DNA of 64,000 bases. Source: Desulfomonile tiedjei DSM 6799. Lineage in GTDB: Bacteria > Desulfobacterota > Desulfomonilia > Desulfomonilales > Desulfomonilaceae. The notes under the pieces were generated by a model. It was not told where the DNA came from. It saw only the letters and a program-made list of their open reading frames with translations, and ran no database searches. The stretch lies in assembly GCF_000266945.1 (NCBI RefSeq), contig NC_018025.1, positions 3,038,001-3,102,000 of the forward strand, in the 5' to 3' direction. Position numbers and translations under genes: made by a program. Shown here in pieces: positions 8,588-53,214 of the stretch; position 1 is the stretch's first letter, and the number at the start of each line of letters is the position of its first letter.

Positions 8588-8806
8588 ATGATCGACAGGA
8601 GATATTACCGGATTAGAGGTCAAAAATGGGAGGCGCGTTTCTTTCAAAAAGGAGAACGTTTTCCCGATACAGCCATTGACGTACCCAAACAGGGCGTATG
8701 GGCTTGCCCGGAACTCCAGGGATGGGACCAAGCCCGTTTTCTCGGGAATTCATGGCGCTTCATCAATTTGGATATAGATGTCAGTTACCTTCCGGAAAAT
8801 AGGTAG
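8588..8806 (+). CDS. small hypothetical protein
   Basis: A 72-residue cytoplasmic-looking protein rich in aromatic and basic residues (six Trp, several Tyr and Arg), with no signal or membrane segment. It begins 15 bases after the small membrane protein gene and its end overlaps the convergent lipoprotein gene by 26 bases. The amino-acid composition looks like real coding sequence. No family recognised. Confidence 0.45.
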   Translation: MIDRRYYRIRGQKWEARFFQKGERFPDTAIDVPKQGVWACPELQGWDQARFLGNSWRFINLDIDVSYLPENR

Positions 8807-9569
8807 GCATTCTCTGCGCCAGTGAAGAATCAACAACTCCTTTGTCTTCGTCTTCTTCCTGATTTTCGCGCCCTTTTATATCCTGAGCTTCATAGCGCTG
8901 ATTCTCGCTGATTTGATTCAGTCTTTGATTCAATGAAAGTATTTGCGGGTCATCTTGAGCGAGCAGCGACCAGGAAGCAAACTCAGTCTCATCAACATCA
9001 CCATTCTTAAATTTTATAGCCACTTTTTTGATTTCGCCGGATTCCATAATCGCCAGGTTGACTGATTGTATGCGCTCGAACTCGTTCTGGTTTGAAGGAA
9101 CGATTTCCGTGGTCAGCACGTCATCATGCTGTTCGCTTTTCATCACAGAGAACTTCCGGAGACTACCGTTGCCGACACTCTGTATGAGAAGCATTAGAGG
9201 ATCCGCAAATTTGGAAAGATCTCGCTCACCGTGAATTTTGAAGACTTCCACATCCGAGCCGTCGTGGGTCATCGTGATTATTTTCCCGTTTGACAGAATC
9301 TCGACGTTAATGTCTCCGGTGAGGGTAAGCTGAAATTTATTCGGCTTCTGAAAAAGGAGAACACCTTTGGCTTTCATCTCGCGATTAAAAACCGAATTGC
9401 GCCGCGTCTTAACGAATTCCGTTCGAAATTGCTTTATAAGACTGGATTTCTTCTCAGCCTCGTTGATTACGTCTCCCAGTTCAAGGTTCTTGGTAAGATG
9501 CTTGGAACCGCAGCCGTTCAGGAGTATGGCCACAGACAATGTACATGCAATAATTAAAAGTATGCGCAA
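8781..9569 (-). CDS. lipoprotein with LolA-like fold
   Basis: A 262-residue lipoprotein: a hydrophobic N-terminus ends in the lipobox LLNGC (Cys20). The following 190 residues resemble the LolA/LolB-like family that binds lipid or lipoprotein acyl chains, with the strand pattern FRTEFVKTR, KAKGVLLFQKPNKFQL and a later NGKIITM. The last 50 residues are acidic and probably disordered. It is therefore an envelope protein possibly involved in handling lipids or lipoproteins. The fold is judged by pattern only. Its 3' end overlaps the small gene on the other strand. Confidence 0.72.
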   Translation of the reverse strand: MRILLIIACTLSVAILLNGCGSKHLTKNLELGDVINEAEKKSSLIKQFRTEFVKTRRNSVFNREMKAKGVLLFQKPNKFQLTLTGDINVEILSNGKIITMTHDGSDVEVFKIHGERDLSKFADPLMLLIQSVGNGSLRKFSVMKSEQHDDVLTTEIVPSNQNEFERIQSVNLAIMESGEIKKVAIKFKNGDVDETEFASWSLLAQDDPQILSLNQRLNQISENQRYEAQDIKGRENQEEDEDKGVVDSSLAQRMPTYFPEGN

Positions 9570-9831: not shown

Positions 9832-9906
9832 TGATTCTTCCCATAGCAGGCATTGGATTCCATCAAGACTTTCGATAACCGCTATAAGAGCGCTCTCACG
9901 CAGTTC

Positions 9907-12042
9907 CTAATCACGATCCTCCGGTTTTTGCCCGGGTCTATGAGGAGGCCCCGGTCTGGGAGGCTCCGGTCGAACTTGTTGTTGTGGCTGAGGCCGTTCC
10001 TGTCGTTGTGGTTCCGGTCTGACCTGAGGTTGTGGTTGAGGCCGTTCCTCTCGACGTGGTTCGGGCCGAACCTGGGGTTGCGGCTGAGGCCGCTCTTGCT
10101 TTGTTTCCGGTGCTCTTTCGGGTCTTCCGGGAGGTTCCGGTCTTTGCGGTCTCATTTCCGGTGTCCGCTCAGGTCGGGACGGCCGTTCCGGTCTTTCAGG
10201 TCTGACCTCCGGCTTTTCAGGAACTCCAGGGCGTTCCGGCCTTTCAGGCCGTTCGGGTTTCACTTCAGGCACCCGTCCAGGCATTCCGGGGCGTTCCGGT
10301 TTCACTTCAGGTCTCTCAGGTCTTTCCGGACGCGGACGTTCAGGTCTCACCTCTGGAGGTCTTTCAGGTCTTCCGGGCCGCTCCGGGCGCTCTGGGCGCT
10401 CTGGTCTTTCAGGTCTGACCTCCGGCTTTTCAGGAACTCCAGGGCGTTCAGGCCTTTCAGGGCGTTCCGGTGTCACTTCAGGTATCCTTCCGGGTCTTCC
10501 TGGACGTTCAGGTCTTTCAGGTCTTTCGGGTCTCCCCGGAAGCACACCGGGCGGCAATGGCGGCCTCTCGGGTCCAGGGCGCTCAACATCGGGAGGACCG
10601 GGTCGCCTGGTGCAACGGCCTTCGAGACAGGTCAGCCCCAGGGATTCGCACGAAACACAATTCGAGCCGCGCCTTTCCTGACAAGCTCCACAGGGCCGGT
10701 GCACGCAACGGCCTCCTACGCAGGTCATGCCGAGTTCTCCGCAGGACACGCAACGGCTGCCATTCCAGAAAGTGCATTGATCGCATTCTCTGCGCGGAAC
10801 GCATCTACCGCCTCTGCAGACTCTGCCCATTTCTTCACAGGGCACACATCGTTGCCCGTTCCAGAATGAGCAACTCGGGCAATCTTTCCGGACACACCTG
10901 CCGTTTTGACATACAAGGCCGAGTTCTGCGCAGGGGATGCAGCGATTATTGCGGAAGACCGTGCACTCACGACATGATTTTTGGACACATCGACCGCGTT
11001 CGCAGTCCAGTCCGAGCTCTCTACAGGGTACACAGCGTCTTCCGTTCCACACAGTGCATTCGCGACAACGGGACGGAACACATCGACCGTCCACACATTC
11101 TCTTCCTACGTCCCGGCATGGAAGGCATCGTCTGCCATCCCAGACAGTGCATCTGCGACAGTTCTTCCGCACGCATCTTCCGCCGATGCATTCCATGCCA
11201 ATCCAATCGCATGGCACGCAACGATCTCCATTCCAAACTTCACAGCCTCGGCATGGTCTCACTGGAACCCACGGAACTGCAGGCGGATAATAGACGTCAA
11301 CCCCGACCTCCGGGACAGCTCCGTAGGAAGGCGGCTGTATGATGTAGGTTTCTTCACAAGAAGGTACGTCTTGAGGGAGGGTTCCGGGGATAGTGGTCTG
11401 GTCGATAAGATCCTTCATCGTCTGCGATGAAACTGTTACCGGTTTTGTAGGCTCCTTGCGCTCATCGATATCGGATCGCTGGCAGGATGTCAGGAGCTGC
11501 TCTGCCGGCAATTCGTCCAGAATGTTCTTCACTCGAACACGGCCCCAAATCACAGTCACCGTAGTCTGCTTCGGATTGTACACGTTCACCACGAAGTCCA
11601 CAGGCCGATCTGTCGGTTCCACATTGATGAGGGCTGTGGGGGTTACGATCGTATAAGATGAAGGAGGATCCGAGTTGGGCAGCTTGTGGACAAACCGGAT
11701 AATTCCTTCGGTCATATCTGCGCTGAAGTGGCTCGTCTGCCCTGATTTTTCCAGATCGTAGAAGTAGATTTCAGACAACTGTCCCATGGAAGTATGACTG
11801 TTGTTAACGAATGACACCAGCCCTTTACTGTCTTTGTCGCTTTGAAACGTATCTCCAATTGCTACGGGGTCACCTTTATTTGCCTGTCGGAACTCCGACT
11901 CATCGGAGTGCCGCATGTAAACGCCTCCTTCCACCGCCTGAACCGAACCTATCTGTTGAGCAAATGCTGGAATTATCCATACACCGGCGACCAACAGATT
12001 TGTCAAAAAGGCTGTGAGAATCCGGCGATATGCGGTTTTCAT
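9907..12042 (-). CDS. secreted FecR-domain protein with seven six-cysteine repeats and Pro/Arg/Glu-rich tail
   Basis: A 711-residue exported protein. Residues 1-28 form a signal peptide ending AFA. A FecR-like beta domain follows (about 30-185; contains VEGGVYMR, GDTFQSD, a VNVYNPKQTTVTV strand). Residues 264-477 are seven tandem repeats of 31-32 residues, each C-X2-C-X7-C-X2-C-X6-C-X4-C, 42 cysteines in all, with consensus WNGxRCVPC and GxCxxGRCV. The tail (about 480-711) is low-complexity, built on RPERPERPG. The frame opens at 12105, but GGAGGAGG just before the ATG at 12042 decides the start. Disulfide-rich repeats plus a stiff Pro-rich tail suggest a surface or matrix protein. FecR domains occur in regulators and in surface proteins, and no sigma factor is nearby. 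Confidence 0.85.
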   Translation of the reverse strand: MKTAYRRILTAFLTNLLVAGVWIIPAFAQQIGSVQAVEGGVYMRHSDESEFRQANKGDPVAIGDTFQSDKDSKGLVSFVNNSHTSMGQLSEIYFYDLEKSGQTSHFSADMTEGIIRFVHKLPNSDPPSSYTIVTPTALINVEPTDRPVDFVVNVYNPKQTTVTVIWGRVRVKNILDELPAEQLLTSCQRSDIDERKEPTKPVTVSSQTMKDLIDQTTIPGTLPQDVPSCEETYIIQPPSYGAVPEVGVDVYYPPAVPWVPVRPCRGCEVWNGDRCVPCDWIGMECIGGRCVRKNCRRCTVWDGRRCLPCRDVGRECVDGRCVPSRCRECTVWNGRRCVPCRELGLDCERGRCVQKSCRECTVFRNNRCIPCAELGLVCQNGRCVRKDCPSCSFWNGQRCVPCEEMGRVCRGGRCVPRRECDQCTFWNGSRCVSCGELGMTCVGGRCVHRPCGACQERRGSNCVSCESLGLTCLEGRCTRRPGPPDVERPGPERPPLPPGVLPGRPERPERPERPGRPGRIPEVTPERPERPERPGVPEKPEVRPERPERPERPERPGRPERPPEVRPERPRPERPERPEVKPERPGMPGRVPEVKPERPERPERPGVPEKPEVRPERPERPSRPERTPEMRPQRPEPPGRPERAPETKQERPQPQPQVRPEPRREERPQPQPQVRPEPQRQERPQPQQQVRPEPPRPGPPHRPGQKPEDRD

Positions 12043-12543
12043 ACTATCCTCCTCCGAGTGTGAACGAAAAAAAGGTGATTTCCCCCAATTTGCGGTTCTT
12101 TTCAAGGGTCATTACTCATATGAAATACCGACAAAGAATACTAATTTCAGGTTAGGGACAATCAAACAGGAACTCCGTTTCTATCGGGACATTATCGAAA
12201 AATATTAATTGAAGGTAATTCCGAACAAAGAGAACTTGACGCCACGGAAAGTACCTTTGTTTTAGGTTTACAAAACCTACTCTCGCTGTCAAGATCTTGC
12301 ATCTCCGAAGTGCTCCACATCTTATTGAGAATTTTCGGGAAAAGTCGCTTGTTATAAATCTGTATCAGCGGGGACTTGTGTATGAAAAAAATGAAAATAA
12401 AATGGGATATGAGAGAATACAGGAAACTCTGGACTGCGCGAGTCGGGACAATCGAGGAAACCGGATTGCATGAAAGACAATGCCGATGATTCAACGTTAT
12501 TCAGGGTTGCGATATTTCAGCAAAAGCTCGTTTGGGATGAAAC
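12043..12543. other. AT-rich intergenic region between divergent genes
   Basis: A 501-base gap that must hold the promoter of the FecR-protein gene (reverse) and of the gene at 12544 (forward). It contains a small palindrome AGGTTT-aca-AAACCT at 12264-12278 and A/T-rich stretches, but no -35/-10 pair I would defend. A 35-codon forward frame (12382-12489) is too weak to call a gene. Confidence 0.5.
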
Positions 12544-51509: not shown

Positions 51510-53214
51510 CCGTGGGTGTCAGAAAGCGTCTCAAAACCTGCGCACTGCGGCGAATCACGCAAGCCGGACGGGAGGACCTGCTTCTGGGAAAAAAGCAGTC
51601 CCGTCAAGTGAAGATCAGGCGAGGTTCGATCCGAGTGTACTGTCCGTTATAAGGTCATGGTCTCCCTCCGGCTGCTTACGTGAATGCCACCTCGCCGGAT
51701 ACCCAATGGTGGTAGAGCTTCCTGAGATTTATGGTCGTGCAAATAAGGTCCCACTGGGCCTTTACGTTGTCGATTCCGGCCACGGTCCATCGCCGAAAGC
51801 TTAATGCGCTCTTGATCCAGGCAAACGGTGGCTCGATAATCTTCTTTCGAGTCTTCAGGCGCTCTTTGTTCTCTGGTTTTTCCCTCTTGCTGCGGTGTCG
51901 TTCTAGGGCCGCCTCGTAAACGCTGAGGTCTATGAGGCGTCCGTTCTTGCTCTTGGAGCATTTCCAGCGATTGGGACACGTTAGAAAATCCTTGCAGTGA
52001 TACCTGCGAACCTCATTGTGGTTCTTGCCGTTAATTTTCCGCTGATGAAAAGGCAACAAGCGCCCTTCAGGGCATATGAAGCAATCACGCTCCTGATCAA
52101 AGACGAACCGGGATCGGTGATAGAGATCCTCATCCGCACCTCTCTCGGAAACAATTTCCCCTGACGATTTCCCGATAAGAATGCCGTATTCTCGCTCATG
52201 GGCCAGACCTATCTGCCCTGAGGAAAAATATCCCCCGTCCGCCACATTTTCCTCTGCCACAGCGCCCAGATTCTCTTTCACCTTGTCGAGCATGGGGACC
52301 AATTGCCCGTTGTCGGCCCCATCCGTGACCACATCTGCGGCCACGATAAGGCCGCTCTTTTGGTCGGCAACCGCCTGAGCGTTGTACGACAAGTCTTTGG
52401 TCCGGCGATTCTTCATAAAGCGAGCTTCCGGTTCCGAAGGGTGAACTGACTTCTTGTCCGATTCATCCAACTCCTTCAGAGCCTCTTGTATCCGCTGTTT
52501 CCGTTTCAATCCGTCTTGCATGGACTGCGGAAGGCGATACTCACCGGTCTCTTCCCGCTCGGCTCTCTCTATCTCAGTCATCGCATCGGCAATCGTGCGG
52601 TCCAATCTCTCCGAAACACTTTCCAGAAACCTCTCCAGGTGCTCACGACCCCGAGCCTTGTCGTTGGATGAGACGGCTTGGATCTTGGTCCCGTCCACGG
52701 CATGAAGAGCTAGACCGATCAGATCGGCCTTCAGAGCAACACGAATCGACTGTCTGAACAGATGCCTCAATGATTTCTTGTTCGCCTTGAAGAATCGCCA
52801 TAAGGAATTATGATCCGGAGCATTCATCCCCGTCAGCCAAATCAGCCCCATATTCTCAAGGCAACCCTTCTCAAGCTTACGGGTACTCCTGATCCGATTG
52901 AAGTATCCGAAAAGCCACACCTTCAACAGAAGATCTGGCGCATACGGAGGACGTCCTGTATCGCTGTCGGGAACCTCGATTCCCAACTCGGACAGATCCA
53001 AGGAATCCACGAAATCTCGGATAAAGCGCGCCGGGTGATCCTTAGCCACCCAGTCTTCCACTGACGGCGGAAACATCAAGATCTGTTCGTAATCGGCCCG
53101 GATCTGTTTGCCCATGACAGCCTCGTGGTTGTTGAATTCCTCTCCTTTCTAGTACATCTCTTGGCAAATCGCGAGCCCAAAATGGAGTTTTGAGACAGTT
53201 TCGTCAACCCACGG
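51510..53214. mobile_element. intact IS1182-family insertion sequence
   Basis: A 1.7-kb element with one transposase gene on the reverse strand. Its inner ends are GTCTCAAAAC (51528) and GTTTTGAGAC (to 53196). Taken outwards to CCGTGGGT, the two ends can be aligned over 28 bases with 22 identities by eye. The outer boundary is uncertain because CCGTGGGT is also part of a common palindrome unit. No clear target duplication was found. It sits directly after cobA-hemD. Confidence 0.82.
51676..53115 (-). CDS. IS1182-family DDE transposase
   Basis: A 479-residue transposase without frameshift or stop. N-terminal DUF772-type block (QILMFPPSVEDWV, RPPYAPDLLLKVWLFGY) and the DDE residues in AVDGTKIQ, VADGGYFSSG and IEPPFAWIK fit the IS1182 group; a Cys-rich insertion (CICPEGR, CPNRWKC) is also typical. 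GAGG lies six bases before the ATG. The element looks potentially active, and related coding-free elements at 18272 and 35544 share its ends. Confidence 0.95.
   Translation of the reverse strand: MGKQIRADYEQILMFPPSVEDWVAKDHPARFIRDFVDSLDLSELGIEVPDSDTGRPPYAPDLLLKVWLFGYFNRIRSTRKLEKGCLENMGLIWLTGMNAPDHNSLWRFFKANKKSLRHLFRQSIRVALKADLIGLALHAVDGTKIQAVSSNDKARGREHLERFLESVSERLDRTIADAMTEIERAEREETGEYRLPQSMQDGLKRKQRIQEALKELDESDKKSVHPSEPEARFMKNRRTKDLSYNAQAVADQKSGLIVAADVVTDGADNGQLVPMLDKVKENLGAVAEENVADGGYFSSGQIGLAHEREYGILIGKSSGEIVSERGADEDLYHRSRFVFDQERDCFICPEGRLLPFHQRKINGKNHNEVRRYHCKDFLTCPNRWKCSKSKNGRLIDLSVYEAALERHRSKREKPENKERLKTRKKIIEPPFAWIKSALSFRRWTVAGIDNVKAQWDLICTTINLRKLYHHWVSGEVAFT

Follow-up and report, generated by a model that had tools for sequence, protein, structure and literature searches.

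Desulfomonile tiedjei DSM 6799 encodes a protein in which a FecR-type domain is followed by seven copies of a cysteine-rich repeat and a long Pro/Arg/Glu tail. The locus raises the question of what such a repeat is and which role it could have in the cell envelope. The window, the whole stretch of DNA that was analyzed, comprises 64,000 nucleotides of a contig of 6,500,104 bases; the genome holds one further small contig.

Gene and Domain Layout

The gene lies on the minus strand. As read from the sequence it starts with an ATG at 12042, ends with a stop codon at 9907-9909 and encodes 711 amino acids. From the N to the C terminus the protein consists of a signal peptide, a FecR-type head, a linker, the cysteine array and the tail. 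The following features were assigned.

9907..12042, minus strand: whole gene, 711 amino acids and stop codon; ortholog in the same genus (L003/L033) with 63-66% identity over the part available
12048..12055, minus strand: ribosome-binding site GGAGGAGG, 5 bases ahead of the ATG, read from the sequence
11959..12042, minus strand: signal peptide, residues 1-28 (MKTAYRR...IIPAFA / QQ), Sec-type, assigned by eye without a predictor
11356..11958, minus strand: FecR-type head, residues 29-229 (Pfam, model mab8e11bc85ec, PDB matches)
11482..11484, minus strand: codon of Cys187, invariant in 12 of 12 aligned FecR heads (alignment A3)
11356..11358, minus strand: codon of Cys229, likewise invariant in 12 of 12 (alignment A3)
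11254..11355, minus strand: Pro/Tyr-rich linker, residues 230-263 (sequence, alignment A2)
10612..11253, minus strand: array of seven six-cysteine units, residues 264-477 (sequence pattern, model m4c72ef225844)
9910..10611, minus strand: Pro/Arg/Glu tail, residues 478-711 (sequence)

Judging from its N-terminal sequence, the protein is almost certainly exported. Inspection of the signal peptide region revealed no lipobox cysteine. The linker exceeds the length of its counterparts in the orthologs from the genera g5 and g7 (alignment A2). The tail, originally put at 230 residues, is present and comprises 234, of which 170 are proline (76), arginine (51) or glutamate (43). It contains no aromatic residues and carries a net charge of +11; the net charge was positive for all seven arrays and for all six tails available. 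A comparison with PHROGs gave a single weak match, located in the tail (E 0.029), and a promoter and terminator scan yielded nothing above chance level. Two frames on the other strand (9853-10869 and 10470-11342) overlie the repeats and were not taken as genes.

The FecR-Type Head

Pfam FecR (PF04773) matched residues 65-170 with 26.4 bits against a cut-off of 24 (E 9.9e-6). The same family matches six of the 12 aligned heads (E up to 0.01). The structural model of the head (mab8e11bc85ec, built from 12 sequences) reached a pLDDT of 90.8 and a pTM of 0.87. It was superimposed on PupR (6ovk_R) with a Z score of 16.9 over 140 aligned residues and an rmsd of 2.5 (Foldseek E 2.3e-6), and on BDI_1681 (4m0n) with a Z score of 16.1. 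According to this model it is practically certain that the head has the FecR fold. Residues 2-96 of the model additionally matched the "Cell surface anchoring domain" 5ix9, presumably from the Marinomonas ice adhesin, with a Z score of 10.5, 75 of 76 residues aligned and an rmsd of 2.4 (Foldseek E 4.7e-3). According to the accessible part of PMC13090378, Marinomonas primoryensis is the organism in which this anchoring domain was originally described, and such retention modules are periplasmic.

By sequence, the profile of the heads found no chain in the PDB, and the whole protein gave nothing below E 0.2 there. The NCBIfam models for LapA retention, LipL45 and Lsa33 each match seven of the 12 heads; the head encoded in the window stays below all three cut-offs. 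C187 and C229 form the head's own invariant pair and are the two of the 44 cysteines that lie outside the repeat units.

The fold is that of PupR and FecR, which speaks for a FecR-type signal transducer whose cysteine array senses a signal and acts on a sigma factor. We consider this scarcely credible. No anti-sigma N-domain was found, Pfam yielding FecR alone for the whole protein at E up to 1. By eye and in the model the beta head directly follows the signal peptide, with no preceding cytoplasmic domain and membrane helix. Fec-type signaling was rejected on this architecture. Furthermore, neither a sigma factor nor a receptor nor any other Fec-type gene was present among the four neighboring genes that were scanned.

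The Six-Cysteine Array

The seven units start at residues 264, 295, 326, 357, 388, 420 and 451. All fit the pattern C-x2-C-x7-C-x2-C-x6-C-x4-C exactly and together hold 42 of the 44 cysteines of the protein. The original prediction had described 42 cysteines in perfectly spaced 31-residue units. The number of cysteines was right and the spacing nearly so, five steps between units measuring 31 residues and one 32. This longer step, ahead of the last-but-one unit, recurs in all seven arrays. The pattern was not matched once in 2000 shuffles of the protein, and translation of the 64-kb window in all six frames gave no other match to the strict unit pattern.

In comparison with the ortholog from the same genus, the first, second and third codon positions of the array differ in 53, 23 and 121 of 213 codons, respectively. 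Since these differences are concentrated at the third position, the array is under purifying selection. In six of six cases the units of the two proteins match best at the same position, with identities of 0.77, 0.67, 0.73, 0.63, 0.73 and 0.77. The last unit has no tryptophan in any of the six arrays that reach its end. The matching register, the recurrent 32-residue step and the third-position bias together argue against a fresh product of slippage; the sequences indicate an old array whose register has been preserved.

Searched alone against Pfam, the array gave no family at E up to 10. A scan of the whole protein with NCBIfam showed no match over the array, and the array profile found no convincing chain among the PDB sequences (best E 0.46). 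Hence neither Pfam and NCBIfam nor the PDB sequences yielded a known family that has this repeat. The six-cysteine module is real, conserved and uncatalogued in Pfam and NCBIfam. The Pfam FecR match, the head model and the array without a Pfam match, together with the signal peptide seen by eye, bear out the original description of an exported FecR-domain protein with an unrecognised cysteine repeat.

The array model (m4c72ef225844, seven sequences) reached a mean pLDDT of 78.7 and a pTM of 0.32, at which the arrangement between units is not trustworthy. It exhibited short strand pairs and, in six of the seven units, a helical turn of at most four residues. Its first PDB match was LRP2, followed by insulin receptor, R-spondin and TNF receptors, none with a Foldseek E below 0.1; one VIA row was obtained (1ext, Z 2.1). 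Such weak matches do not count as evidence of a new fold. They do recall modules that bind ligands, and the protein might accordingly be read as a surface adhesin or binding receptor with furin-like or TNF-receptor-like domains exposed at the cell surface. The match of the first part of the head to an adhesin anchoring domain would fit such a role, as would Lsa33, an FecR-type protein of Leptospira described as laminin-binding in the accessible part of PMC5553009. We nevertheless regard an adhesin or receptor as rather improbable, all Foldseek matches of the array lying above E 0.1, the sole VIA row reaching Z 2.1 and an outer-membrane route not having been found.

Occurrence of the Module

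The whole protein matched 18 of 41 genomes (its own and 40 others), many of them through the FecR head alone. The array alignment A1 detected the module in nine of the 42 genomes from the class, each of them one of the 18 from the window's own family, and in at least three of 395 genomes of a phylum sample, again all from this family (best nine candidates per genome scored). In a collection of 84,980 species a whole-protein scan confirmed no relative. A pattern-based scan with A1 gave six loci there, which correspond to six genomes already found; their MAG titles read Desulfomonile tiedjei, uncultured Desulfomonile sp., Syntrophaceae bacterium (two) and Deltaproteobacteria bacterium (two). No array was found in plasmids, phages or viral contigs. 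Within the collections searched, the module is found in one bacterial family only.

Seven of the 18 family genomes encode a FecR-array protein. The number of units is seven in the window, six plus a cut seventh in G001 and five in G007, G012, G014, G015 and G016; one of the five units has four cysteines in each of the last four genomes. Two more genomes contain the module in mini-proteins only, which have no FecR head and comprise one unit in G002 (L030) and two in G005 (L029). By eye these start like signal peptides, and some of their spacings are changed, those of G005 among them. The module is very likely an autonomous domain.

Probable Pairing of the Cysteines

The seven arrays provided 38 units, 35 of them distinct. 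All six cysteines are intact in 34 units. In the other four both Cys2 and Cys5 are absent, and neither was ever lost alone. These are always the first units of arrays from the genus g5, which form one clade. The search pattern demanded cysteines 1, 3, 4 and 6. Apart from the truncated seventh unit of L003, however, no array has a leftover cysteine outside its matched units, so the pattern did not conceal units with other losses. In the G005 mini-protein, aligned by eye, Cys2 and Cys5 are likewise missing from the first unit, with two extra cysteines elsewhere. The losses may descend from a single event; L006 and L007 are near-copies. As the two residues were lost jointly, a disulfide between C2 and C5 is a simple explanation, and the sequences favor this bond.

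We searched the 18 family genomes for the families VKOR, DsbA, DsbB and Thioredoxin_4. The window genome has a VKOR match in a 452-amino-acid frame that it shares with DsbA and Thioredoxin_4 matches. DsbB was found in none of the 18 genomes. VKOR was not found in six of the nine module carriers (G005, G007, G012, G014, G015, G016); it was present in nine of nine non-carriers, the match in G013 being weak and partial. Comparing VKOR presence in carriers (3 of 9) and non-carriers (9 of 9), a Fisher test gave p 0.009, a value which ignores kinship and is not proof. G007 has a DsbA match, though VKOR was not found. The five remaining genomes belong to one genus (g5), and all four families went undetected in them. 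Among the non-carriers DsbA is absent in G003 and G013, and Thioredoxin_4 in G013. Completeness amounts to 82-83% for G014, G015 and G016, 97% for G012 and 99% for G005; with two enzyme-less carriers 97 and 99% complete, incompleteness is unlikely as the whole reason. In the enzyme-less carriers either another oxidant acts or the cysteines are unpaired there. This apparent lack, set against 28-42 cysteines per array, bears on disulfide formation outside the cytoplasm in sulfidogenic anaerobes.

DsbA-family matches with one in-frame TGA were observed in seven genomes (G000:C1:1203217-1203786 and places in G001, G004, G007, G008, G009 and G017). They possibly represent selenocysteine-containing DsbA-like proteins.

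The original prediction had all cysteines either paired outside the cytoplasm or possibly binding metal. For D. tiedjei we consider pairing likely, in keeping with the joint loss of Cys2 and Cys5 and with the VKOR- and DsbA-type matches in the window genome; the five of nine carriers without the enzyme families searched do not fit it. Because of this gap we kept a second reading, in which known disulfide catalysts are lacking and the reduced cysteines of the array bind metal or react with sulfide. Each unit has two CxxC pairs that recall a zinc ribbon, 34 of the 38 units have an acidic residue, a possible ligand, at position 17, and according to the accessible part of PMC7773648 the growth of Desulfomonile species is coupled to sulfate reduction, with sulfide as a product. 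However, the joint loss of Cys2 and Cys5 would break both a C1-C2-C3-C4 site and a C5-C6 pair with four cysteines remaining. Histidine occurs in just five of 38 units, and neither a Pfam family nor a convincing PDB chain (best E 0.46) covers the array. Metal or sulfide handling thus appears unlikely.

Two Kinds of Proposed Stalk on Similar Heads

In the closest heads from G004, G006, G008, G009 and G011 a Thr/Pro-rich or Gly/Thr-rich low-complexity region replaces the cysteines; the frame of G009 ends at the contig end. Among the 14 heads placed in a tree, those of the cysteine type, seven in all, form one group (support 81/78, recovered in 86% of 200 bootstrap trees), and five other heads group weakly (39/71). 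We read the Cys-rich and Thr-rich regions as alternative stalks on one kind of head. One bacterial family would then hold similar heads with two very different stalks. The window genome encodes a second FecR-type protein (G000:C1:5500040-5500654, L002) in an open frame of 828 amino acids. Its tail, as far as it was read, is rich in Arg and Gln, and a cysteine array is absent.

Directly upstream of the FecR gene, on the same strand, all five loci of the Thr-rich type (L047-L051, from the five genomes named above) carry a gene for a large protein with many TPRs, with at most one small frame between the two genes. The first half of the TPR protein is hydrophobic by eye and gave no Pfam match above the cut-off. 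We take its layout to recall TMTC-type O-mannosyltransferases. By this analogy such a layout would suit glycosylation of the Thr-rich stalk, and the two proteins may be a dedicated glycosylation pair. Relatives of the TPR protein occur elsewhere in the window genome and were not found in G005, G007, G012, G014, G015 and G016.

Gene Neighborhood

Both loci from the window's genus place the gene next to sbcC- and sbcD-type genes and the gene of a 181-amino-acid protein. Downstream of it in the window follows a LolA-like gene (8781-9569, minus strand; PF03548, E 2.1e-7). The four neighbors scanned in the window were LolA, SbcD and two proteins without a family. LolA is normally soluble; by eye, a lipobox-like LLNGC was observed near the N terminus of the LolA-like protein.

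In the genera g5 and g7 the FecR gene directly follows a glycosyltransferase-like gene in four of five loci (L034, L035, L036, L038; the family assignment rests on L034), and L037 has an intervening gene. The gene of a small exported protein follows in five of five loci. Beyond it lie nifU- and nifS-like genes (by eye), where the loci extend so far. The small protein (L034:4316-4642, export judged by eye) contains CxxC and CxC cysteines and has no Pfam match. It was rejected as a partner: 13 of the 18 family genomes have it, and neither of the two genomes from the window's genus yielded it. The neighbors differ between the lineages, and no partner gene common to both was seen in the loci compared. 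A 479-amino-acid open reading frame elsewhere in the window (51676-53115, minus strand) resembles an IS transposase by eye.

Proposed Role in the Envelope

The computations support the gene, its architecture, the fold predicted for the head, the existence of the module apart from the FecR protein and the module's restriction to one family in the collections searched. From these we infer disulfides, stalk geometry, location and binding. The signal peptide would export the protein from the cytoplasm. The beta head would fold outside the cytoplasm and tether the protein to a component of the periplasm or outer membrane; this reading draws on its fold, which it has in common with the PupR/FecR periplasmic domain and, over its first part, with the domain that anchors a large adhesin. 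The seven modules, short predicted hairpins with probably three disulfides each, Cys2-Cys5 among them, would form a stiff basic stalk. The aromatic-free, Pro-rich basic tail would be an extended disordered arm, probably touching acidic envelope polymers. The protein would not signal to a sigma factor in the known manner of FecR.

The chances that the array acts as a stalk or spacer in the envelope seem to us evenly balanced, and the whole reading, in which a disulfide-stiffened stalk bears a FecR-type head in the envelope, could equally well prove right or wrong. Against the stalk stand the five of nine carriers in which all four disulfide-enzyme families are missing, the restriction of the C2/C5 losses to one genus (perhaps one event), and the Pfam FecR match in just six of 12 aligned heads. 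Given the low pTM of the array model and its lack of a convincing structural match, the rigidity of the stalk stays conjectural. Moreover, no lipid anchor, outer-membrane route or partner was identified, and the neighbors vary by lineage. A surface adhesin, a metal-binding layer or a scaffold, the roles first suggested, are likewise hypothetical.

A bolder idea is that the module is a new family-restricted, load-bearing element of the envelope which matures without a known disulfide catalyst in one genus. It might even be part of the collar, a collar-like wall invagination described as distinctive of Desulfomonile in the accessible part of PMC7773648, the link being shared taxonomy alone. We hold this idea to be a long shot. 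If true, maturation without such a catalyst would mean that these anaerobes have either a thiolate-metal stalk or a route of periplasmic oxidation that has so far escaped notice. The role of the protein is still unproven; the module is a real conserved building block.

Comparison with Known Systems

The literature search, with most subscription journals outside its range, returned no paper that pairs a FecR domain with cysteine-rich, none on the Desulfomonile tiedjei genome and FecR, and none that joins retention module, LapA and FecR.

With the FecR/PupR periplasmic domain (PF04773) the protein shares the fold of its head (Z 16.9 to 6ovk_R) and a Pfam match above the cut-off. Unlike those regulators it has no anti-sigma N-domain, and the head is followed by the cysteine array and the tail. 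The first part of the head also shares the fold of the LapA-type retention domain (NF033682; 5ix9). In contrast to LapA-type adhesins, NF033682 scores 17.2 and 20.2 bits here against a cut-off of 50. LapA leaves the cell by type 1 secretion, whereas the protein encoded in the window has a Sec-type signal peptide by eye. A LapG-type protease (PF06035) was found in none of the 18 family genomes and in one of 14 control genomes. The accessible part of PMC13090378 gives the LapA-type cleavage motif as [T/A/P]AAG; the 711 residues contain no Ala-Ala pair and thus no such motif. LapA-type retention as such was rejected on the sub-cut-off score, the protease not found and the missing Ala-Ala pair.

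LipL45 and Lsa33 of Leptospira are likewise exported FecR-type proteins, and their profiles match parts of the head. The likeness is limited to head residues, which score 23.4 of 350 and 12.5 of 420 bits, respectively. The accessible part of PMC5553009 calls both of them FecR proteins and describes Lsa33 as a laminin-binding protein with predicted surface exposure.

Furin-like, R-spondin, insulin-receptor and TNF-receptor modules are also tandem and cysteine-rich and were among the best, weak structural matches of the array (E >0.1). They belong to animal proteins, however, and the array has no sequence match to them. Their cysteine spacing differs from that of the array. On present evidence the protein is a variant of the exported FecR-domain proteins and not a new kind of system; it adds to these proteins an uncatalogued six-cysteine module that also stands alone.
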